A DNA stretch of 15,903 nt. Source: Cryomorphaceae bacterium (GTDB taxonomy: Bacteria; Bacteroidota; Bacteroidia; Flavobacteriales; Crocinitomicaceae). This document shows, in pieces, positions 3,101-12,562 of the stretch. The notes beneath the pieces were generated by a model. That model was given only the letters and a program-made list of their open reading frames with translations. It was not told the DNA's origin and did no database searches. The DNA lies in contig JAJTDX010000079.1 in NCBI GenBank assembly GCA_021298235.1, forward strand, positions 1-15,903, written 5' to 3'. The stretch's first letter is position 1; each line of letters begins with the position of its first letter. A program made the position numbers and the translations under genes.

Positions 3101-4186
3101 TTACTTAATCTGCACGCCTCTTGAAGAATATAGTCCTGCCGATTGATTTTTACTTTTATCCAGACTAAAAGCGAAGGTACTTCCAATGCCAACGGTGCTT
3201 CTCACGGATATTGTTTGTCCGTGTGATTCAATGATGTGTCTGCAGATTGCCAAGCCCAGACCCGATCCACCCTCGTTTCTATTTCGACTTTTTTCCACTC
3301 TGTAAAAGCGCTCGAAAAGTCTTGGAAGATGTTTTTCATCAATTCCCGGTCCGTCATCAGATACTTCAACGGTGATGATATCATCCACGACAAAAAGACG
3401 TATCGTCGTATTCCCACCTTCATTCCCGTAGAAGATTGAGTTAGTGATCAGATTAGTCAAGACCTGTCCTATTTTTAATCGGTCTCCATCCGCGAAGAGG
3501 TTTCCATAATCTTTGGCAAAACCAAGTTTAATCTTTCTTTCGGATGCCCTTAACTCAAGAGATTCAAATACTTCTCTAATGAGTTCTATGATATCAAATG
3601 CGCGAATTTGCATTTGAAGTGCATCTACCTCCAATTTTGTGATCTCATCCAAATCCTCCAAAATGTTTGTCATTCGTTCTGCAGATTTAGATGCGCGTTC
3701 CAGAAAATTTCGATTTACTGTTTCATCTTCAAGGCCGCCATCCAAAAGTGTGAGTATATAACCCTGTATCGAAAAAACAGGTGTTTTGAGTTCGTGCGCC
3801 AGGTTGCCTAGAAATTCTCTACGGAATTCTTCTTGTTCTTTAAGCTTTTCAATTTCCTTGTTTCGTTCTTCCGTCCATTCTTGTGTTTCTTTCTCAGCTT
3901 GTGCAATCACGTCATCCGTAATTCGGAACTGTAGATCATTTTCCTTGGTAATTTTCCCTTTTCGGATGGAACGATACAGCACCTTAAGACGGTCATTAAT
4001 GAAACGTTGGATAAAAAAATAAAAAACACCGAATGAAATCAATCCGGTTGCAAATGGCAATCCTATAAGTACCCAAAAAGGAAAATTCATTACCTGAAGA
4101 TCGATAATGAATGTAATTAGTAAGGTCAACAAGAAAATGATGGCGCTGCCACCAAATACTAGGTGAATAGGTTTAATGTTCTTCAC
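3101..4186 (-). CDS. PhoR-like sensor histidine kinase
   Basis: This is an inner-membrane histidine kinase of 361 aa that would phosphorylate the PhoB-type regulator encoded just upstream. Two hydrophobic segments (~8-30 and ~36-58) are joined by only a few residues, so there is almost no periplasmic sensor. No PAS domain is visible, and a coiled linker (~95-122) leads to the catalytic core. The HisKA motif FLGNLAHELKTP places the phosphorylated His at 131. The N box is QVLTNLITNS (241-250), G1 is DDGPGID (277-283), the F box is LFERFYRVEKS (290-300), and G2 is GGSGLGLAI (306-314). All key residues are present. The start is GTG and overlaps the regulator's TGA by four bases (GTGA), which points to translational coupling. 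The architecture fits Bacteroidota PhoR-like kinases; a phosphate role is inference, since no pst or phoU genes are in view. Confidence 0.93.
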   Translation of the reverse strand: MKNIKPIHLVFGGSAIIFLLTLLITFIIDLQVMNFPFWVLIGLPFATGLISFGVFYFFIQRFINDRLKVLYRSIRKGKITKENDLQFRITDDVIAQAEKETQEWTEERNKEIEKLKEQEEFRREFLGNLAHELKTPVFSIQGYILTLLDGGLEDETVNRNFLERASKSAERMTNILEDLDEITKLEVDALQMQIRAFDIIELIREVFESLELRASERKIKLGFAKDYGNLFADGDRLKIGQVLTNLITNSIFYGNEGGNTTIRLFVVDDIITVEVSDDGPGIDEKHLPRLFERFYRVEKSRNRNEGGSGLGLAICRHIIESHGQTISVRSTVGIGSTFAFSLDKSKNQSAGLYSSRGVQIK

Positions 4187-4872
4187 GATTCGCTGAAGGT
4201 ATATCCGACGCCTTTTATAGTGCGAATATAGTCATCTCCCAGCTTTTCTCTTAATTTTCTGATATGAACATCAATTGTTCGTTCGCCCACTACCGTATCA
4301 TTTCCCCAAACAATGGTCAGTATCTGTTCTCTCGAATATACTTTTCCCGGTCTGCTAGCTAGTAATTCAAGCAATTCAAACTCCTTTTTGGGCAGCAACA
4401 TACTTTGCCCTTTGATTTCTACCATGAACTTTTCCCTGTCAATTTTAATACTGATTACAGGATTTTCAACGATAGAACTTGACGAACGCACCAATCTTCG
4501 CAGCAGTGATTCTACTTTACTAATGAGAAGTCGAGGTCTGACCGGCTTTGTAATGTAATCATCGGCACCTGCTTCAAAACCAGCAATCTGTGAATAATCT
4601 TCGGCTCTGGAGGTTAAAAATGCAATAATTGGTTGGGTAATGTTTAGGTCTTTTCGGATCACTTGACAGGCTTCAATCCCATCCATTTTTGGCATCATAA
4701 CATCCATAAGAATGAGCGAGGGATGTATTTGTTGGACTAATTTTATAGCTTCTTCACCATTCAATGCGGTAAACACCTTGTATCCCTCCTTCTTCAAGTT
4801 GTATGAAAGAAAGTTCAAGATGTCTTGCTCATCATCCACCAGTAAAATAGTATGTCCTTTTAGTGTATCCAT
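4183..4872 (-). CDS. PhoB-type response regulator (OmpR/PhoB family), partner of the adjacent kinase
   Basis: This is a cytoplasmic DNA-binding response regulator of 229 aa. The receiver domain (~7-125) has the acidic pair D13/D14, the phosphoacceptor D57 (LILMDVMMPKMDG), T87 and K109. A winged-helix domain follows (~133-227) and ends in RTIDVHIRKLREKLG and IKGVGYTF, typical of PhoB-like regulators. I chose the ATG at 4872 because the receiver begins a few residues later. The frame stays open to 5031, but that extension would cross a terminator and run into the upstream gene. The kinase gene follows with a 4-bp overlap. The protein is closely similar to the orphan regulator at 11672-12343, sharing EDYSQIAG and RTIDVHIRKLREK. 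No promoter is evident in the 46 bp upstream, which are filled by a terminator hairpin, so expression may depend on read-through or on a promoter inside the preceding gene. Confidence 0.94.
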   Translation of the reverse strand: MDTLKGHTILLVDDEQDILNFLSYNLKKEGYKVFTALNGEEAIKLVQQIHPSLILMDVMMPKMDGIEACQVIRKDLNITQPIIAFLTSRAEDYSQIAGFEAGADDYITKPVRPRLLISKVESLLRRLVRSSSSIVENPVISIKIDREKFMVEIKGQSMLLPKKEFELLELLASRPGKVYSREQILTIVWGNDTVVGERTIDVHIRKLREKLGDDYIRTIKGVGYTFSES

Positions 4873-4880
4873 TCTAGTTG

Positions 4881-4909
4881 AAAAATGGGGCAGCTTATGA
4901 AGCTGCCCC
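4881..4909 (-). terminator. Terminator of the beta-helix/T9SS gene
   Basis: A perfect 10-bp inverted repeat, GGGGCAGCTT (4887-4896) and AAGCTGCCCC (4900-4909), is separated by three bases. On the minus strand it is followed by ATTTTT (4886-4881). This is a textbook Rho-independent terminator for the gene ending at 4919. It also sits only 14 bp in front of the start of the next regulator, so it could act as an attenuator for the regulator-kinase pair. Confidence 0.85.
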
Positions 4910-4918
4910 TTAGATATA

Positions 4919-6487
4919 TTAGTTCTTAATGATAAGCTTACGTGTGAGTTTTCCGCTTGCTGTCTCAAGATTGATGAAATAAATTCCATTGGCAAAACTG
5001 CCGGATGATATTTCGAGATGGTTATTTCCATCTAGAAGTGTTACTTCATTCTTTAATACAACTTGTCCAAATTGATTCGTGAGGATTAAATTTGCTTCTT
5101 GTGCTGTGGAGGAAACAAACGTTAAATTCACTTTTTCTCCAGCTGGATTTGGGTAAAGTTCAACTTGATTCAATCCGCTTAGTTCCTCGAGACTCACGTT
5201 GATAAGTACTGTCAATGTTGCTTCATCAGAGCAGTTGCCATTGATCGCAGTTAGGATAACAGTGTATGAGCCATTTGCTGCGTAAGCATGCGTTGGATTG
5301 GCAGCTGAAGAATTGGTTGCGTCTCCAAAATCCCATGAATATGAGGTAGCATTTGATGAAGCATTTGTGAATGTCACAACATTTCCTGAAGAAGTAAATG
5401 AACCAGTCGCTGTTGGTGTTGTTCCAAAGGTGATAGTCACCGGATCTGAAGTTCCAACTCCAGCACATGCATCTGCATTTGTTGTTGTTACAGTATATAC
5501 ATCACCTTGAGTCACACTGATTGCTTGGGTAGTTTCACCTGTGCTCCATAAGTAAGAATCTGCTGTTGATGATGTCAATGTGATGGTTTCACCAGAACAT
5601 GCCTCTGTTTGCGGAGCACTGATGGTTGGGATCGGTGCGTTGCTCACGTTAACCGTTACAGGAGCTGATGTAGCAGAGCAACCATTTGAATTGGTATAAG
5701 TTACCGAATAGCTTCCGGAGCTGTTCACTGTGATCGAGGATCCAGTTGCACTATTTGACCAAGTGTTACCTGCTGCTTCGCTTGAGGTCAATACTACAGA
5801 ACCACCAGTACAAAATGTGGTTGGACCGTTTGCATTAATGGTAGGCGCAGTTGGATTTGCATTGACCACTACTGTGATTGCTGTTCTTGGGCTTTCATCG
5901 CCGTTAGTGTTGTATTGACTAACATAATAAGAGTAGGTGCCTGATGCCGATGTGGTTGGAGTAATGGCAGTTGTTGAAGATGTACCTCCAGTTGCTTGCA
6001 TGTACCAATACAATGAATTTCCTGTTCCCGCATTTGCAGTCAAGGCAGATGCAGCTGCTCCAACACAATAGGTATATGATGTTGTGGCTGTAGGGGCAGC
6101 TAAATTGTAGAATTTAGGATGTGTGAAGTTCGCTCCGGAACCTGCAACCGAACCTGTATTCAAACGAGCATCGGGGGTAGTTCCTAAAGCAGTGAAAATG
6201 TTTACCCAATTTACCTGACCTAACGTGGAGGTAGAATCATTGCCATCAGCGTTCCAAAATGAACCATAGAATGCAGCATTAGAGGGAAGTGCAGTATTTG
6301 CATTGTAAACCGTATTTGTATTTGAAGTCGACCAGGATGGTGTTGCAAAGTTGGTAGTGATGTTGGATACAAAAACCAATGAGTCTCCATTTACATTGTT
6401 CACAACTGCATCTCCTTCGATGGACAACCCTTTTTCCCAACCTGTAATAATGGAGTTAAGAAGAGAAGTCGAAGTGTTTCTTCTCAA
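4919..6487 (-). CDS. 3' fragment of a split secreted protein: beta-helix remnant, Ig-like and PKD domains, T9SS sorting domain
   Basis: This is the downstream half of a gene interrupted at ~6485. The only nearby start is a TTG at 6487, overlapping the TGA of the 5' half. The first residues (LRRNTSTSLLNSIITGW) look like the inside of a beta-helix domain, not a protein start, and there is no signal peptide. Seen in order, counting from the TTG: beta-helix tail (1-~130); three Ig-like units opened by CVGAAASAL, FCTGGSVVL and ACSGETITL (~135-353); a PKD domain with SYSWDFGDA (~358-430); and a T9SS type A sorting domain with ELYPNPAGE and ANGIYFINLE (~441-522). The sorting domain shows that the ancestral product was secreted. 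Without its signal peptide this half would stay in the cytoplasm if translated at all. A good terminator follows at 4909-4881. It is probably a pseudogene piece, unless the junction is a sequencing error. Confidence 0.75.
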   Translation of the reverse strand: MRRNTSTSLLNSIITGWEKGLSIEGDAVVNNVNGDSLVFVSNITTNFATPSWSTSNTNTVYNANTALPSNAAFYGSFWNADGNDSTSTLGQVNWVNIFTALGTTPDARLNTGSVAGSGANFTHPKFYNLAAPTATTSYTYCVGAAASALTANAGTGNSLYWYMQATGGTSSTTAITPTTSASGTYSYYVSQYNTNGDESPRTAITVVVNANPTAPTINANGPTTFCTGGSVVLTSSEAAGNTWSNSATGSSITVNSSGSYSVTYTNSNGCSATSAPVTVNVSNAPIPTISAPQTEACSGETITLTSSTADSYLWSTGETTQAISVTQGDVYTVTTTNADACAGVGTSDPVTITFGTTPTATGSFTSSGNVVTFTNASSNATSYSWDFGDATNSSAANPTHAYAANGSYTVILTAINGNCSDEATLTVLINVSLEELSGLNQVELYPNPAGEKVNLTFVSSTAQEANLILTNQFGQVVLKNEVTLLDGNNHLEISSGSFANGIYFINLETASGKLTRKLIIKN

Positions 6488-7293
6488 ACGCCAAACTGAA
6501 CTTTACCACGGAATCCAAAATCTGTATCAAAGTCATCATCCAACCCGCGGTATGCAATTAGATGTTTACAGTTTACAGTACCACCAAACCATTCAAAGGA
6601 GTCGTCACCTGAAAAGGAAACTTGTACATAATCTACTGTGGTAGCAGAACCAACTGATCCAAACGTGATTCCATTGATCTCTTTATTTGGTTCTAAAGGG
6701 ATACCACCAAATTCAACGCGCACATAGCGCAGAGTACCTGAGTTATCCGTATCGAAATTACCCCCAAACTGAGTGTCAGTGGTAGGTGCAATACCTTCAA
6801 TATTTGCTACGCCTCCTGGTTGATTGTTTTTTGCAAGGCCAAGTATTACAAGTCCTCCCCAGTCTCCTTCATTTCTGTTTCCAACTGCTTCATTCGAGGT
6901 GAAGACAATTGGTTGTGACGCTGTACCATTCGCATTGATCTTTGCACCTCGGGTAATAATAAGCGTTGCTTGAGTTAGCTTATCACCACGTATAATGGTT
7001 CCGGGTGCAATAGTTAATGTTGCATTGTTTTTAACATACACTTTGTTTTGAAGCAGGATTGTTCCGCTCCATGTAGTGCTTGTGGTAATGTCGGAAGATA
7101 CAGTTGTGGTTGTAGCCGGATAAACGGTGTTTTCAGGATCAAAATTTGACCAACCACTTGTCCAGTCTGTCGCTGGTGTATTATCCGTTACGGGAAAAGC
7201 TCCCTTATAATCTACAACATCCCAAAATGCCTCTTGGGCTGTTGCTAAACTGCACAAGGATAGTGCAGCAAACATTGTGTACATTTTTTTCAT
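6484..7293 (-). CDS. 5' part of split beta-helix secreted protein (signal peptide plus beta-helix, stops early)
   Basis: The ATG at 7293 is followed by a signal peptide (MKKMYTMFAALSLCSLATAQ). A right-handed beta-helix region follows, recognisable by YVKNNATLTIAPGTIIRG, GTASQPIVFTS, GDWGGLVILG and LIAYRGLDDDFDTDFGFRG. Reading ends at residue 269 after GKVQFGV with TGA. In relatives as I remember them, GKVQFGV is followed by LRDP and a glycine/asparagine-rich stretch of some tens of residues before HLRRNT. Here RRNT follows almost at once, but in another frame. So this gene seems to carry an internal deletion plus a frame change relative to its family. The product would reach the periplasm but lacks the T9SS signal. 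It lies downstream of a periodic TTA-repeat promoter like that of the TonB receptor. Its function is unknown; proteins of this type often sit beside TonB receptors. Confidence 0.8.
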   Translation of the reverse strand: MKKMYTMFAALSLCSLATAQEAFWDVVDYKGAFPVTDNTPATDWTSGWSNFDPENTVYPATTTTVSSDITTSTTWSGTILLQNKVYVKNNATLTIAPGTIIRGDKLTQATLIITRGAKINANGTASQPIVFTSNEAVGNRNEGDWGGLVILGLAKNNQPGGVANIEGIAPTTDTQFGGNFDTDNSGTLRYVRVEFGGIPLEPNKEINGITFGSVGSATTVDYVQVSFSGDDSFEWFGGTVNCKHLIAYRGLDDDFDTDFGFRGKVQFGV

Positions 7294-7317: not shown

Positions 7318-7385
7318 CAAAGTAACGGAGCATGATAGGCTTGGATGGTTAGCTTAGTTTTATTCTTAAATTATCATTCTATTAA
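7318..7385 (-). promoter_or_regulatory. Putative PhoB-type operator and promoter of the beta-helix gene
   Basis: On the minus strand a TTACTTTG -7-like element lies at 7325-7318, about 25 bp before the start codon. TTA motifs (plus-strand reading) begin at 7349, 7360, 7371 and 7382, each exactly 11 bp apart. The first repeat starts 31 bp from the CAAA of the -7 element, against 30 bp in the promoters at 11583 and 12365. The repeats are weaker here (TTAG, TTAT, TTAT, TTAA), and an off-phase TTAA at 7366 shows that AT-richness contributes. Confidence 0.45.
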
Positions 7386-7430
7386 TGAGATAACACAATT
7401 TCTTAACATAACAATTATAGATAACGGAGC

Positions 7431-7460
7431 AAAAAAAAGGCTGCCCCTAAAGAGGCAACC
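7431..7460 (-). terminator. Terminator of the outer-membrane protein gene
   Basis: On the minus strand GGTTGCCTC (7460-7452) pairs with GGGGCAGCC (7447-7439) around a TTTA loop, with two G-U pairs. Eight T residues follow at 7438-7431. It lies 63 bp after the stop of the gene at 7523 and separates it from the beta-helix gene, so the two are probably not one simple operon. Confidence 0.85.
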
Positions 7461-7522
7461 AAATTCCTTTTGAAACAATTCTATTGATTACGTTAATGGT
7501 GGTAGTTTGAATTCAACTCGAA

Positions 7523-8491
7523 TTATTTGTTAATACTAATATTCAATCCAAATGCCGCATAGAAGTTCTTGAACCTCCCTGAGGAGCTGGTATTGAACAA
7601 AATTCCAGGCCGTGATCCTAATTCCAAACGTAGACCAAATCCTATCAAATTAACCCAGTCTGCATCCACGATGAAGCGATATCCCAAATTACGAATTTCT
7701 GGTTTTTCTGATAGTTGAAAAGATGTTCCACCATTTTCAGGTTTCTGCACCAAGGTGTTGTCCACATTGACAACAGGCATCCATAAAGCTTCGACAATAA
7801 CGTCTACTTTGTTTCGCACTGATTTTTTACCATAGGCCTCACCAGTCTCTGAATTCTGAGCATTGATAACAAAATTTTGAATCATACTAAAATGAAAGCC
7901 TCCGGTAAAACGAGCTCCTGAAAAATATGTTCCATAATTCAAGGAATTATGCGAAGCACCTTGCGCGTCGACGACACGGAACAAGGTGTCAAATTTTTGA
8001 TTTTCTGTAATACTGTTCAGATAATACCCTGCACTACCCGTTAACCCCATTTTTCGTAAGGTAGTAGCCGGTGCCATTATGTATGTTTCGTTCGTGTATG
8101 TGAAGTAACCTACATTCGAACTAGTTCTTTTCAATGAAACCTTCACATCCTCTTTTTGCTCTATCGATTGAAAGTAAAAACTTCCTCGAGTAGAGAAATT
8201 ATTGGGATTCTTTTGAATTGTATTCATTGATTGCTTGTAAACATTATCCCATTTTTGTTGTGTTTTTTGATATTCTCCGGCGATTGAGATCCGTTTTCCT
8301 ATGTTAAAAGATCCGTTAAAATAGTAGCCGGAGCGGCTATTTCCGCTGCTAAAATCACCATCATACAGCACTCCACCTTTTAAATGAATGAACATTTTAG
8401 GATTATCTCTTAAAACTTCATAGTTTATTTTTTGACTCAATGCAACATTGTAAAACAGAATAATGATCCCACAAGAAAGTGTTTTTTTCAT
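7523..8491 (-). CDS. Putative outer-membrane beta-barrel protein of unknown function
   Basis: I do not recognise a named family. The 322-aa product has a signal peptide (MKKTLSCGIIILFYNVALS, cleavage before Gln20). The rest is rich in alternating aromatic and polar strands, such as MFIHLKGGVLYDGDF, SGYYFNGSFNIGKRISIAGEYQ, and FYAAFGLNISIN at the end, as in small outer-membrane barrels. It has no lipobox in a usable position, no T9SS sorting domain and no Cys-rich repeats. The gene lies between the TonB receptor and the beta-helix gene on the same strand, but has its own terminator (7460-7431). Its upstream promoter does not show the 11-bp TTA repeats of its neighbours. A role in the same surface system is inference from position only. 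Confidence 0.8.
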   Translation of the reverse strand: MKKTLSCGIIILFYNVALSQKINYEVLRDNPKMFIHLKGGVLYDGDFSSGNSRSGYYFNGSFNIGKRISIAGEYQKTQQKWDNVYKQSMNTIQKNPNNFSTRGSFYFQSIEQKEDVKVSLKRTSSNVGYFTYTNETYIMAPATTLRKMGLTGSAGYYLNSITENQKFDTLFRVVDAQGASHNSLNYGTYFSGARFTGGFHFSMIQNFVINAQNSETGEAYGKKSVRNKVDVIVEALWMPVVNVDNTLVQKPENGGTSFQLSEKPEIRNLGYRFIVDADWVNLIGFGLRLELGSRPGILFNTSSSGRFKNFYAAFGLNISINK

Positions 8492-8505
8492 TTTGAATTT
8501 TTATG

Positions 8506-8537
8506 CAAAACTATCGCTGACATCTACCTTTTTCAAT
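8506..8537 (-). promoter_or_regulatory. Bacteroidota-type promoter of the outer-membrane protein gene
   Basis: On the minus strand TAGTTTTG (8513-8506) fits the -7 consensus TAnnTTTG, and ATTG (8537-8534) lies 20 bp upstream as a -33 element. Transcription would start within about 10 bases of the ATG at 8491. No 11-bp TTA repeats are present. The rest of the spacer up to 8657 shows nothing further that I can assign. Confidence 0.55.
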
Positions 8538-8657
8538 ACGCATTCTTTCGTATTTGTTGTATCAAAAGAACTAGAATTAGTTTTTGTTGATTCAAGAATG
8601 TTTATCTACCTTTTCGAACTTTCTATTTTTTACATCGTCGAGAGCTTCACTTTGTTG

Positions 8658-8688
8658 AAAAAAAAGGGCCGTCTATTCAGACAGCCCC
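8658..8688 (-). terminator. Terminator of the TonB receptor gene
   Basis: On the minus strand GGGCTGTCT (8687-8679) pairs with AGACGGCCC (8674-8666) around a four-base loop, with one G-U pair. Eight T residues follow at 8665-8658. It starts 23 bp after the receptor's stop codon and isolates the receptor transcript from the next gene. Confidence 0.87.
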
Positions 8689-8710
8689 TTTAAAATCGAA
8701 TTTAATGAGT

Positions 8711-11566
8711 TTATTTGAAACTGTACTTCACCGACAAGCTGATGGTCTGACCGAAGCTGATCTCTTGCCAGTTGTTGTCCACGTCGGCATCGTATGATTG
8801 ATTTCCATTCAGATCCTGGAAATAGACAAGTTTTTGAGCTAAAAGATCCCGTGCATTAAGTTTAATCTCCCATTTTTCAGCTATTGTTTTACTCAACTGA
8901 AGGTCTATGACATGCCTGCCATTTTCCCACACTGTAGGTTCTTGAACATTCCCAACAATATAAATACGTTGACCAATGACGTTATAGGAAATGTTCAATG
9001 CCCAATCATATTTAAACGGATTGAAACTTATTCCTGCATTTACAATGTAAGGGGATTGTCCTTGTAGTGGTCTGTCTCCTCCCGAACCGAGTACCTCAGA
9101 GACATCTACCTTTGAGCGTATTAATGCGAGGTTCGTATAAATCGTTGTAGCATCCAGCCAAGTCGAGTCGGCTTTATTAAAAATGCCAAGTTTGAGTCTG
9201 TACTCCAATTCTGAGCCGTAATTTGTCGCTCCTACCACATTGGTGTAATACAGTTCAGGTGCTCCTGATGTTCCGGTTCGGTTAATGAGTTCAATTGGAT
9301 CAGTGAACGTTTTGTAAAAAGCACTTACGCTGAAAACTTGCCCAGCTCCGGGGAACCATTCAAAACGTAAGTCGGCATTATTGATAAGTGCTCGTTTTAG
9401 ATTTGGATTTCCTGAAAGAATATTGTCCTGCACGAAGTTATAAAAGGCAAACGGTGCCAACTCTCTGAACTCAGGTCTTGATACAGTTTTGTAATAGGAT
9501 GCCCTGATATTCATCTTCGGAGAAAGTGACCAGATCAAGTTGACAGATGGAAGCACGTCAACCACGGTGGAATCTATGTTCTTCGGAAGGTTCGAGCCAA
9601 ATTCAATGTAACTGAATTTTTGGTTGTATGATTCCAATCGAGCACCACCGACAAATCTGAGTTTATCTCCCAGCTTTATATCACCCATTGCAAAACCCGC
9701 GTTTAAAAACGCCGATGCTTGATAACTGTCGTCTACGTTGGAAGCTTCATCCAACTTAAATCCTCCCTGTCCGTTTTCAAGCAAGCCCAAATTTTCTTGT
9801 GCAAAGATTTGATCTGCGGGTAATAATAAAAGTGAACTATTGAATGAGCTCCCATTCGGCTTGTATTGAGAAAATCCAAAGTTCCTTGATTCAAAATTAC
9901 GGTCGCGGATCTGATGCATGCCTCCGAATTTCCATTCTGTTTTGATTTTATCCATACTCCAAGGTAAGGAGTAATCATATTTCATGCTTACTGTCTGTTC
10001 AGTAGAATTCGCCCAAAACATATTTCCGGCAGCAGTAGGAATAGTGCCATTGTTTTGAACAACAGCGACGTACGCGGTATCTCCGAAATTAATATCCGTA
10101 TTATTTTCTTCCAAGGCATATTTGCGATAAACAATTCGACGCAGGTTTGGAATTTGTCGTTCTACACTACTTAAACCTGTATTCCAGTTGAGCTTCCCTT
10201 TTTTCAGTTCGTGACTTCCAATAAACTGGGTGCTGAATAAATTATTTTGGGTATACCAAAAGTTAGTTGATCGTTCCCACTGCCTCGGGTCATTGTCTAG
10301 TTCTCTTGCACCGCTGCGCAGATTGACCTTATCTTCAGAGTTTACCGAGTAAAGTGTCTTGATTGATAATTTATTTTTAGGATTTATTTTCCAAGTAGTA
10401 TTCAGCATGGCACTATTTAATATAGACTGGTTAAATACCGAGTCCATTAATTCCATTTTCTTCACTACGCCTGCAGCCTGCTCTTCAAAATCACGACGGT
10501 AGTATATGTTTGTGTTGAAATTATTTTGATAGTTGTAGGCGAACAGAAATCCGAATTCTTGATCATTTTTTTTGAATGTTTTACCAAAGCTGTACTGTAG
10601 GTTTCCATTGGGCAGTGCTTTTCCTGAACCAGCATTCCAGACGAAGTTCATGTTTTTTGCCAAAAGACCCTTTTCATCTTTACCCATGCTAGCAAAATCA
10701 ATGGTACTCGGAATACTTTCAGGAAGTTTACGTGAATCAGATCCAAATCCTAGTCCATCCAAAAAGTTGCCACCGGAATTTCTGAATGTCTGAAAGGTGG
10801 TCAGCGTGTTGAATCCGCCTCCCAATTGTAATTGATGTATATCTTTAGATTTTGGCTCCATCGTATTGATGTCGATCACCCCACCTGCAAATTCTCCGGG
10901 CATGTCGGGCGTAGCTGTTTTCATAATGACGAGATTGTCCAGCATATTTGAAGGGAAGATATCAAATGAAAAGGCCTTTTTATCACTTTCAGAGGAAGGC
11001 AGTGTGGCACCATTAATCAGTGCAAAGTTGTAACGGTCGCTCAGTCCTCTTACGACGACAAATTTGTTATCTTGAACACTGGCACCGCTGACTCGTTTGA
11101 GTACATCACTCGCTTTACTGTCCGGTGATTTTTTAATAGTTTCTTGTGAGATACCATCCACTACCGTTGCACTGTTTCGTTGCATTTTGATGATATTCTC
11201 GTTAGATTCTTTACTTACCTGGCCTTTCACGGTAATATCCTTAACCTCCTTAATGTCCTTCTCAAGAACAATGTTTACAAAAACAGTATCTCCAGAACGC
11301 ACTACTACTTCAGCTTGCCGTCCGGTTCGATAGGTCGGATAGGATATTGAAAGGGAATACCTCCCTGGTTGGAGGCTTATAAAGTAGTTTCCGTCCAAAT
11401 CGGTCATGGCACCTTTGTTTAGACTGTCGACGCTTACTCGAGCTCCCGGGATGGTCTCGTTGTTTGAAACATCTGTGACTTTGCCTTTAATGAAGCCGTT
11501 TTGAGCGATTGAGAGAAACGTTGTTAAAAGGAATTGGACAGTAAGTAGTGTGTTCTTCATCGTCAT
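8711..11566 (-). CDS. TonB-dependent outer-membrane receptor with carboxypeptidase-like regulatory domain
   Basis: This is an outer-membrane active transporter energised by TonB-ExbBD, 951 aa long, a normal size for the Bacteroidota type. The signal peptide ends near SIAQ (residue ~22; MTMK start, or the second Met at 11560). Residues ~25-103 are a CarboxypepD_reg-like beta-sandwich (GKVTDVSNNETIPGARVSV ... TDLDGNYF). The plug spans about 125-235, with SDVLKRVSGASVQDNKFVVV, RGLSDRYNFALINGATLP and PGEFAGGVIDI. The remainder is a beta-barrel ending in QTISLSVKYSFK. No SusD partner is present, which argues against a classical glycan SusCD system. The promoter carries five TTAA motifs at 10-11-bp steps, suggesting control by the PhoB-type regulator encoded immediately upstream. 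No terminator separates that regulator from this gene. The substrate is not shown; a phosphorus source is an inference from the operator. Confidence 0.94.
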   Translation of the reverse strand: MTMKNTLLTVQFLLTTFLSIAQNGFIKGKVTDVSNNETIPGARVSVDSLNKGAMTDLDGNYFISLQPGRYSLSISYPTYRTGRQAEVVVRSGDTVFVNIVLEKDIKEVKDITVKGQVSKESNENIIKMQRNSATVVDGISQETIKKSPDSKASDVLKRVSGASVQDNKFVVVRGLSDRYNFALINGATLPSSESDKKAFSFDIFPSNMLDNLVIMKTATPDMPGEFAGGVIDINTMEPKSKDIHQLQLGGGFNTLTTFQTFRNSGGNFLDGLGFGSDSRKLPESIPSTIDFASMGKDEKGLLAKNMNFVWNAGSGKALPNGNLQYSFGKTFKKNDQEFGFLFAYNYQNNFNTNIYYRRDFEEQAAGVVKKMELMDSVFNQSILNSAMLNTTWKINPKNKLSIKTLYSVNSEDKVNLRSGARELDNDPRQWERSTNFWYTQNNLFSTQFIGSHELKKGKLNWNTGLSSVERQIPNLRRIVYRKYALEENNTDINFGDTAYVAVVQNNGTIPTAAGNMFWANSTEQTVSMKYDYSLPWSMDKIKTEWKFGGMHQIRDRNFESRNFGFSQYKPNGSSFNSSLLLLPADQIFAQENLGLLENGQGGFKLDEASNVDDSYQASAFLNAGFAMGDIKLGDKLRFVGGARLESYNQKFSYIEFGSNLPKNIDSTVVDVLPSVNLIWSLSPKMNIRASYYKTVSRPEFRELAPFAFYNFVQDNILSGNPNLKRALINNADLRFEWFPGAGQVFSVSAFYKTFTDPIELINRTGTSGAPELYYTNVVGATNYGSELEYRLKLGIFNKADSTWLDATTIYTNLALIRSKVDVSEVLGSGGDRPLQGQSPYIVNAGISFNPFKYDWALNISYNVIGQRIYIVGNVQEPTVWENGRHVIDLQLSKTIAEKWEIKLNARDLLAQKLVYFQDLNGNQSYDADVDNNWQEISFGQTISLSVKYSFK

Positions 11567-11582
11567 TTTTCGAAATTTGACG

Positions 11583-11659
11583 CAAAGAAAGGGCTAAAGT
11601 TTTACCTTCAATTTAACTCAAGATTAAGATTCATTAATGATAAGTTAACTTAGGGTTAA
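11583..11659 (-). promoter_or_regulatory. Putative PhoB-type operator array and promoter of the TonB receptor
   Basis: TTAA motifs begin at 11613, 11624, 11634, 11645 and 11656, with steps of 11, 10, 11 and 11 bp. On the minus strand the outer ones read TTTAACCC and GTTAACTT. Downstream, a -7-like TTTCTTTG lies at 11590-11583, and a possible -33 ATTG at 11612-11609. The distance from the CAAA of the -7 element to the nearest TTAA is 30 bp, the same as in the promoter at 12365. PhoB/PhoP-family proteins bind 11-bp-periodic direct repeats; that this array is such a site is inference. Confidence 0.6.
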
Positions 11660-11671
11660 ATCAGAATTTAC

Positions 11672-12343
11672 CTAATCTTCAGGAATGAATTTGTAGCCTA
11701 CGCCCTTGACAGTTTTGATCTGATTTTCACCAATTTTTTCACGTAATTTTCTAATATGTACGTCAATAGTACGGTCACCAACGATGATGTCTGTCCCCCA
11801 CACTTTGTCGAGGATTACATCTCTTTCAAATACATCGCCTGGTTTCGAGACCAACAAGGCCAGCAATTCAAATTCCTTGCGAGGCAGTTGTAGAACTTTT
11901 CCGTCTTTTTCAACAATGTATTTTTCTCTGTTTATAACCAATCCTGTGACAGGCTTTGGATCTTGTTCGATCATTCCTTTTCTGCGGAGAATGGCATTTA
12001 TGCGACTAATCAGAACTTTTGGTTTGATCGGTTTGGCCACGTAATCATCTGCTCCGGCGTCCAACCCTGCAATTTGGCTGTAATCCTCGCCTCTTGCAGT
12101 CAAAAAACAAATCAGTGTTTGGCTGAGTCCCGGAATCTGTCTGATTGTTTCACAAACTTCTATTCCGTCCATACCCGGCATCATTACATCCAATAATACT
12201 AAATCCGGTTTTTCCTCCCTCAGAAGTGATAATCCGTTTTCTCCGTTTTCTGCAGAGAAAACAACATAGCCCTCCTTTCTTAAATTGTAACTCAGGAGCT
12301 CGCGAATGTCTTCTTCGTCATCCACAATGAGTATCTTGATCAT
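11672..12343 (-). CDS. Orphan PhoB-type response regulator (OmpR/PhoB family)
   Basis: This is a DNA-binding response regulator of 223 aa. The receiver has D8/D9, the phosphoacceptor D52 (LVLLDVMMPGMDG), T82 and K104. The winged helix (~130-220) contains PRKEFELL, VGDRTIDVHIRKLREKIG and VKGVGYKFIPED. The ATG at 12343 is chosen because the receiver begins at once (MIKILIVDDE); the upstream in-frame start at 12367 would overlap the predicted promoter. No kinase gene is adjacent, although the close paralogue at 4183-4872 has one, so the same kinase might serve both. It lies directly upstream of the TonB receptor, and its own promoter carries the same repeats as the receptor's. This suggests autoregulation and control of the receptor. 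Phosphate as the signal is inferred from family resemblance. Confidence 0.94.
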   Translation of the reverse strand: MIKILIVDDEEDIRELLSYNLRKEGYVVFSAENGENGLSLLREEKPDLVLLDVMMPGMDGIEVCETIRQIPGLSQTLICFLTARGEDYSQIAGLDAGADDYVAKPIKPKVLISRINAILRRKGMIEQDPKPVTGLVINREKYIVEKDGKVLQLPRKEFELLALLVSKPGDVFERDVILDKVWGTDIIVGDRTIDVHIRKLREKIGENQIKTVKGVGYKFIPED

Positions 12344-12364
12344 ACAAGCTTCAATTAATAAGCC

Positions 12365-12409
12365 CAAAGGTATTCAAAAGGAATTGAGTGCGCATTAACA
12401 AAAGGTTAA
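12365..12409 (-). promoter_or_regulatory. Putative PhoB-type operator and promoter of the orphan regulator
   Basis: On the minus strand TACCTTTG (12372-12365) fits the -7 consensus TAnnTTTG, about 22 bp before the ATG at 12343. The minus-strand sequence CTTAACCTTTTGTTAATG (12410-12393) holds two TTAA cores exactly 11 bp apart, starting at 12395 and 12406, where a -33 element would lie. A further TTTAACCT is at 12428-12421, out of phase. The CTTAACCT-N3-GTTAATGC layout resembles the Pho box described for cyanobacteria. Confidence 0.55.
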
Positions 12410-12472: not shown

Positions 12473-12508
12473 CCAAAGTAGTAGTAGGTTAGGTTGATTA
12501 GTGTAATG

Positions 12509-12536
12509 AGAGCCTCGGATTCCCGTCTGAGGCTCT
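12509..12536 (+). other. Leader stem-loop upstream of the RprY-like regulator
   Basis: AGAGCCTC (12509-12516) and GAGGCTCT (12529-12536) form a perfect 8-bp stem with a 12-base loop in the predicted 5' leader. The sequence after it (TTGTTCGTTTG) is T-rich but broken, so it could be a weak attenuator, an RNA-stability element or a protein-binding site. No riboswitch class is recognised. Confidence 0.5.
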
Positions 12537-12562
12537 TGTTCGTTTGTAACGTACAGTTTGTC

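Follow-up and report, generated by a model that had tools for sequence, protein, structure and literature searches.

The window analysed here, a stretch of 15,903 nucleotides from a Cryomorphaceae bacterium (contig JAJTDX010000079.1), carries on its minus strand, in this order, genes for an orphan OmpR/PhoB-family response regulator (ORR), a TonB-dependent receptor, a small outer-membrane protein, a β-helix protein with a type IX secretion system (T9SS) tail, and a PhoB-PhoR pair. Ahead of the receptor and β-helix genes we found arrays of TTAA or TAA units with an 11 bp step, phased to the −7 promoter element. These two arrays appear to be genuine control boxes that evolution has preserved; the box before ORR is less certain. 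We propose, with a probability of about 0.8 for the explanation as a whole, that the receptor and β-helix arrays are Pho boxes serving a PhoB-type regulon under phosphate shortage.

Phased TTAA arrays in the window

A first-pass annotation of the window had described 11 bp TTA(A) repeats before TTTG-type −7 elements at ORR, the receptor and the β-helix gene. We recovered all three arrays on the minus strand, at the places given in Table 1. The receptor array consists of five TTAA units (low ends at 11656, 11645, 11634, 11624 and 11613; steps of 11, 11, 10 and 11 bp), which lie 30, 41, 51, 62 and 73 bp before the TTTG of the −7 element TTTCTTTG. The β-helix array is degenerate: TAA cores lie 30, 41, 52 and 63 bp before the TTTG of TTACTTTG, with a further unit at 84/85 bp. 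Complete TTAA units of this series are confined to 7382–7385 and 7403–7406, and an extra TTAA at 7366–7369 is out of phase. Before ORR, a TTAA pair begins 41 and 30 bp ahead of the TTTG in TACCTTTG; a third TTAA is located 18 bp farther upstream, off the 11 bp spacing, which leaves ORR with one 11 bp step only. The distances of 30, 30 and 31 bp originally given for the three promoters were reproduced, the 31 bp of the β-helix promoter being the same series counted from TTA instead of TAA (30 bp). The Bacteroidetes −7 consensus is TAnnTTTG (PMC7366714). It is matched in full by the ORR element only, and the receptor and β-helix elements retain its TTTG.

The outer-membrane protein gene had been put forward as a contrast with an ordinary −33/−7 promoter and no repeats. 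The absence of repeats held, with no TTAA within 169 bp upstream, and the gene provides a fair internal contrast. Its TTTG lies 18 bp ahead of the ATG, and the supposed −33 element dwindled to an ATTG 28 bp farther up.

We also ran the simulation that the annotation had suggested. In dinucleotide shuffles of the 150 bp upstream regions, TTAA-N7-TTAA-N26-TTTG arose in 16/20,000 cases for ORR and 6/20,000 for the receptor, and four in-phase TAA cores plus TTTG in 0/20,000 for the β-helix gene; such arrays are rare, for patterns that were picked after seeing the data. Because of this post hoc choice, conservation is the stronger test.

Conservation of the arrays in related loci

We compared the loci of 60 relatives, taken from the top of a list of 200 genomes in which the receptor had a match (partial matches and part of the 42–45% class omitted). 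The receptor gene was followed by the β-helix gene in 58/60 relatives, and in 41/60 a PhoB gene came after this pair on the same strand. For the spacing test, filtering for non-redundancy and length reduced the upstream regions from 61 to 44 (receptor), 59 to 45 (β-helix), 17 to 14 (ORR) and 42 to 34 (PhoB). TTAA pairs at 11 bp were present in 38 of the 44 receptor promoters (2.3 expected) and 27 of the 45 β-helix promoters (2.2 expected). The distances between TTAA units peaked at 11 bp (77 pairs, 2.1 expected), 22 bp (41) and 21 bp (26) in the receptor set, and at 11 bp (39, 2.3 expected), 21 bp (19) and 22 bp (18) in the β-helix set.

Anchoring on TTTG worked in 60/61 receptor, 59/59 β-helix and 10/17 ORR regions. 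Relative to this anchor, TTAA occurred preferentially at 52 bp (52 promoters), 41 bp (47), 30 bp (45) and 73 bp (30) before receptor genes, and at 63 bp (42), 52 bp (31), 84 bp (24), 41 bp (24) and 30 bp (15) before β-helix genes. Upstream regions of other genes in the same loci served as controls and were compared with 59/61 receptor, 59/59 β-helix, 16/17 ORR and 42/42 PhoB regions. An 11 bp pair was found in 53/59 receptor promoters, in register in 46/59, as against 6/91 and 0/91 of the controls. Fisher's test gave p≈1e-26 for the receptor and p≈1e-12 for the β-helix promoters, but the relatives are not independent, so that these values overstate the case and the effect size is what counts. 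The exact arrangement TTAA-N7-TTAA-N26-TTTG was matched 44 times on both strands of the 61 loci (1,935,098 bases): 40 times in receptor promoters, once in a β-helix promoter, once in the ORR promoter of the window and twice elsewhere.

Boxes upstream of phosphate genes

The box is also present before genes for phosphate acquisition in related genomes. Upstream of pstS-like genes, an 11 bp TTAA pair was found in 7 of the 12 best-scoring of 30 loci, a set delimited at 130 bits after the list and the promoters had been seen; six of the 12 pass the family cut-off, and three of these six have the pair. The 18 lower-scoring binding proteins, used as a control, had it in 0/18 cases. In five of the seven the proximal TTAA lies exactly 30 bp from TTTG, two of these five being near-identical promoters, and the pair was detected before 16/30 Na/Pi cotransporter genes, ten times exactly 41 bp from TTTG, counting any TTTG where a promoter of either set had more than one. 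Porin_O_P genes carried the pair in 14/30 cases; in the control regions described above it occurred in 6/91. At five Porin_O_P loci (L135, L146, L151, L153 and L157) the TTAA pairs are 47 bp from TTTG, out of register by roughly half a helical turn. At L188, a more distant receptor/β-helix pair adjoins PhoB-type regulators, a Porin_O_P gene and a Na/Pi cotransporter gene with a PhoU domain.

The arrays have three of the properties by which a PHO box is recognized. They are 11 bp tandem direct repeats at the receptor and β-helix genes; they take a fixed place upstream of the core promoter, mostly at 30+11n bp also for pstS-like and Na/Pi genes, with Porin_O_P as the exception; and in the same group of bacteria they also stand ahead of genes for phosphate acquisition. 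The local regulon of the first-pass annotation is too narrow a description, because these other phosphate genes carry the box.

ORR and the linked PhoB

Both ORR and the linked PhoB combine a receiver with a winged-helix Trans_reg_C domain, as do PhoB-type members of the OmpR family. The recognition-helix core RTIDVHIRKLREK is common to both, and the box may therefore serve both. In a regulator tree, from which one divergent copy was left out, they formed two separate groups. The PhoB-type copies of the distant loci L188, L190 and L194, which contain Na/Pi transporter genes, fell into the ORR group (moderate support, 91/82), so that the counterpart of PhoB in these loci might be ORR and not the linked PhoB. 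ORR was located upstream of the receptor in 16/60 relatives. An ORR counterpart (61–83% identical) was present besides a PhoB paralogue in 30/30 genomes, namely 29 picked for an ORR not beside the receptor plus the nearest genome, G001.

Among the 17 ORR upstream regions (window included), the exact 30/41 arrangement was found in the window only, and any of three registers in 2/17. The nearest-TTAA distances were scattered in the ten that could be anchored. A conserved box in ORR's own promoter, the mark of autoregulation, was thus not detected in this set. An 11 bp pair was nevertheless more frequent before ORR (6/16) than in the controls (6/91; p=0.002). Where ORR is located elsewhere, the pair occurred in 5/20 upstream regions (1.3 expected; 20 of 29 loci readable, no −7 distance counted). 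This mild excess makes a weak or lineage-specific control of ORR possible, and the ORR array of the window may have been added to the circuit in one lineage. Of the proposed PhoB-type regulon, the joining of receptor and β-helix gene was supported by conserved and phased boxes that recur at phosphate genes; ORR as its autoregulated centre was not well supported (strict arrangement in 1/17, neighbourhood in 16/60).

A terminator-like hairpin ahead of phoB

Between the β-helix stop codon and phoB we detected a hairpin and T-run resembling an intrinsic terminator. A similar element lies just ahead of phoB in 36/42 loci, and the gap from the β-helix stop codon to phoB is 39–73 bp in 39/42. The phoB upstream regions themselves had an 11 bp pair in only 4/42 cases. 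Since PhoB-PhoR is located behind a terminator in the β-helix unit, read-through would yield a weak positive feedback. From this arrangement, feedback is likelier to run via the PhoB-PhoR pair downstream of the β-helix gene than via an autoregulated ORR.

Comparison with known systems

The core found here is TTAA, in contrast to CTGTCAT in the E. coli PHO box, and is nearer to the TTAACA-like repeats of B. subtilis. Unlike the classical PHO box, which has been reviewed for B. subtilis and others (PMC4415409), the boxes described here take their position from TAnnTTTG, the −7 element of the Bacteroidota. In Bacteroides fragilis, also a member of the Bacteroidota, PhoB is required for pst expression at low phosphate (PMC3547664); the passage on this point gives no box sequence, and the terms 'motif', 'consensus' and 'binding site' do not occur in its main text. 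Putative Pho boxes have been reported at plcP genes of marine bacteria (PMC4796936).

The closest match in gene content is the PUSIV/phoBR cluster of F. johnsoniae (Fjoh_0541–0549), which is strongly induced at low phosphate (PMC8115612). There, as in the window, where these four genes are all near each other, phoB and phoR stand beside genes for a TonB receptor (pf13715) and an exported protein of the β-helix type (IPR011050). The exported protein is a lipoprotein in F. johnsoniae; that of the window has T9SS, PKD and Ig_7 domains. An OprP gene belongs to the F. johnsoniae cluster and was not seen in the window. The first value column of the published table lists 8.02 for the TonB-dependent transporter, 9.91 for the pectin-lyase-fold lipoprotein, 3.06 for PhoB and 0.76 for PhoR, and OprP was not induced (−1.3, not significant) (PMC8115612). 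'Pho box' and 'promoter' do not occur in the main text of that paper. The smaller rise of PhoB and PhoR relative to their neighbours would fit, without proving, a terminator ahead of them.

PhoPR of Riemerella anatipestifer is a system with a PhoB/PhoP-type regulator in a bacterium of the same order as that of the window. The most conserved letters bound by Riemerella PhoP are TTTAACA; the protein binds upstream of its own operon, its binding map comprises 583 peaks, and a TonB-receptor promoter was among those tested by electrophoretic mobility shift assay (PMC9603813). Neither an 11 bp repeat nor a −7 register was found in the passages on this site, and 'direct repeat' does not occur in the main text (PMC9603813).

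By description only, the β-helix protein can be likened to ElpS of Caulobacter: both are exported, ElpS being induced by phosphate starvation and released with the aid of a type II system (PMC2996285); the β-helix protein has a T9SS sorting domain. The proteins designated FI–FIII are reported to have modest homology to a low-phosphate-inducible C. crescentus lipoprotein (PMC8115612), which we take to be ElpS.

Among the matches listed in our literature searches, none described, in the text available, a Bacteroidota Pho box as 11 bp repeats placed relative to a −7 element; the nearest was the TTTAACA of Riemerella PhoP. As far as these searches show, the system is of a known kind and the box itself is newly described.

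Other features of the window

The nearest relative of the window is a Flavobacteriia metagenome-assembled genome (MAG), whose locus (L001) has the same gene order minus the outer-membrane protein gene. This relative and the T9SS sorting domains mark the window as Bacteroidota DNA. The product of the outer-membrane protein gene matched no Pfam or NCBIfam family at E 0.001, and no open frame in the loci of the 60 relatives, some of which end at contig edges, was a counterpart of the gene. It therefore looks like an insertion.

The name 'β-helix' is reasonable for the secreted protein, judging from a model of a relative. The AlphaFold2 model of that relative's β-helix domain had a pLDDT of 85. 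It gave 225 matches in the PDB; most of the 50 listed were pectate lyases, polygalacturonases, pectin methylesterases and tailspikes, and none had E≤0.001. Compared with solved structures, the relative's protein gave only PKD-type and similar matches, all of them behind the β-helix domain.

A gene for an RprY-like regulator runs divergently from ORR. Ahead of it, on the plus strand (~12480–12545), is a conserved stretch consisting of GTAGTAGTAGGTTAGGTTGATTAG followed by an inverted repeat, which is also present in L001 and several ORR loci. An Rfam search of the window, this stretch included, gave nothing up to E 0.5.

Table 1. Genes and regulatory features of the window
Feature	Position	Strand	Remarks
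ORR TTAA-N7-TTAA pair	12395–12409 (TTAA at 12406–12409 and 12395–12398)	−	11 bp step
ORR −7 element TACCTTTG	12365–12372	−	
ORR, orphan OmpR/PhoB-family response regulator	11672–12343 (ATG at 12343)	−	Pfam Response_reg and Trans_reg_C; best NCBIfam match PhoB, below cut-off
Receptor array, five TTAA	11613–11659	−	Proposed Pho-box array; conserved in relatives
Receptor −7 element TTTCTTTG	11583–11590	−	CTTTG retained in relatives' consensus
TonB-dependent receptor	8711–11566	−	951 aa; carboxypeptidase-regulatory-like N-domain
Outer-membrane protein gene without array	7523–8491	−	322 aa
β-helix array, TAA/TTAA units	7349–7406	−	Proposed Pho-box array; conserved in relatives
β-helix −7 element TTACTTTG	7318–7325	−	
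β-helix secreted protein, N-terminal open frame	6484–7293	−	269 aa
β-helix protein, C-terminal open frame	4919–6487	−	Ig_7, PKD and T9SS sorting domains (Pfam-type domain search)
Terminator-like hairpin and T-run	4881–4909	−	Between β-helix stop and phoB; z −4.0
PhoB-type response regulator linked to PhoR	4183–4872	−	Domain match; NCBIfam PhoB score below cut-off; neighbourhood
PhoR-like histidine kinase	3101–4186	−	HisKA and HATPase_c; best NCBIfam matches PnpS and PhoR, both below cut-off

Proposed mechanism and alternatives

In the mechanism that we propose, PhoR would phosphorylate one or both PhoB paralogues under phosphate shortage. The TTAA cores, one each 11 bp, would be tandem head-to-tail sites for the phosphorylated PhoB-type regulator. 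As the arrays stand next to the TAnnTTTG-type −7 element in the place of the −33 element, activation through contact with a sigma factor is suggested, as is known for PhoB of E. coli; the regulator would recruit the primary sigma factor of the Bacteroidota, a class II mode of activation. Phosphorylated PhoB would thereby switch on the receptor and the T9SS-exported β-helix protein, which together would take up a phosphorus-containing substrate after binding or processing it. Read-through of the terminator into PhoB-PhoR would add the weak positive feedback.

Several points weigh against this proposal. In the whole genomes G001, G064 and G114, the strict pattern gave 22 matches versus 17 for a reversed control, which is no clear excess; the full regulon therefore cannot be read from the pattern alone. 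The arrays of Porin_O_P genes lie 46–48 bp from TTTG in 8/14 cases, off the 30+11n register, and in several promoters of the pstS-like and Na/Pi sets any one of more than one TTTG was accepted as the anchor. PhoX-like genes had the pair in only 2 of 21 upstream regions (those readable among the best 22 of 30 loci, the eight weakest being omitted), and many of them may fall outside PhoX proper. G001, the fragmented MAG that is the nearest genome, contained no match to PstS, the Na/Pi cotransporter or PhoX. Both regulators fall below the NCBIfam cut-offs for PhoB (TIGR02154 and NF053854: 217/296 and 204/270 bits/cut-off for ORR, 206/296 and 205/270 for the linked PhoB), which makes them PhoB-type proteins and not PhoB by rule. 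The likeness to the F. johnsoniae cluster is one of gene make-up and domains. Finally, the β-helix gene of the window is broken at ~6484–6490 into two frames; it is ~187 bp shorter than in L001, and its two matching pieces overlap by 7 bp, reflecting either a real deletion or an assembly error.

Chance, by which AT-rich spacers would often yield such arrays, could draw on the 22 versus 17 matches in the three genomes and on window patterns chosen after looking; it is most improbable in view of the 11 bp pair in 6/91 controls versus 53/59 receptor promoters, and of the register in 0/91 versus 46/59. Conservation contradicts a chance origin of the receptor and β-helix arrays; the ORR array may have arisen by chance. 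Rather unlikely, in our view, is a local autoregulated regulon in which ORR binds its own, the receptor and the β-helix promoters. In its favour are the exact 30/41 arrangement in the window (16/20,000 shuffles), the shared RTIDVHIRKLREK core, the pair enrichment before ORR both beside the receptor and elsewhere, and the grouping of the L188, L190 and L194 copies with ORR. Against it stand the restriction of the strict arrangement to the window among 17 ORR-receptor loci, the scattered TTAA distances in the ten anchored ones, and the presence of ORR beside the receptor in only 16/60 relatives.

OmpR-family proteins generally use tandem sites about 10–11 bp apart, and the boxes could on this ground serve another member of the family, for example the RprY-like regulator, or a signal other than phosphate. 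The broad binding map of Riemerella PhoP (PMC9603813) is in keeping with such a role. We consider it improbable, given that the box also precedes pstS-like, Na/Pi and porin genes, that PhoB-PhoR is linked to the pair, and that the similar cluster of F. johnsoniae is induced at low phosphate (PMC8115612).

Beyond the Pho-box explanation of the two arrays, we tentatively suggest, at somewhat less than even odds, a general class of flavobacterial Pho promoters in which TTAA units at 30+11n bp from TTTG replace the −33 element, two PhoB paralogues share the same recognition helix, and terminator read-through gives PhoB-PhoR a low-gain feedback. Phosphate control is a well-explored subject in Proteobacteria and Firmicutes. 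For flavobacteria that are aquatic or associated with plants, a phased box open to experiment would make it easier to infer Pho regulons from genome sequences, and it gives the uncharacterised receptor/β-helix pair a likely function in phosphorus scavenging.

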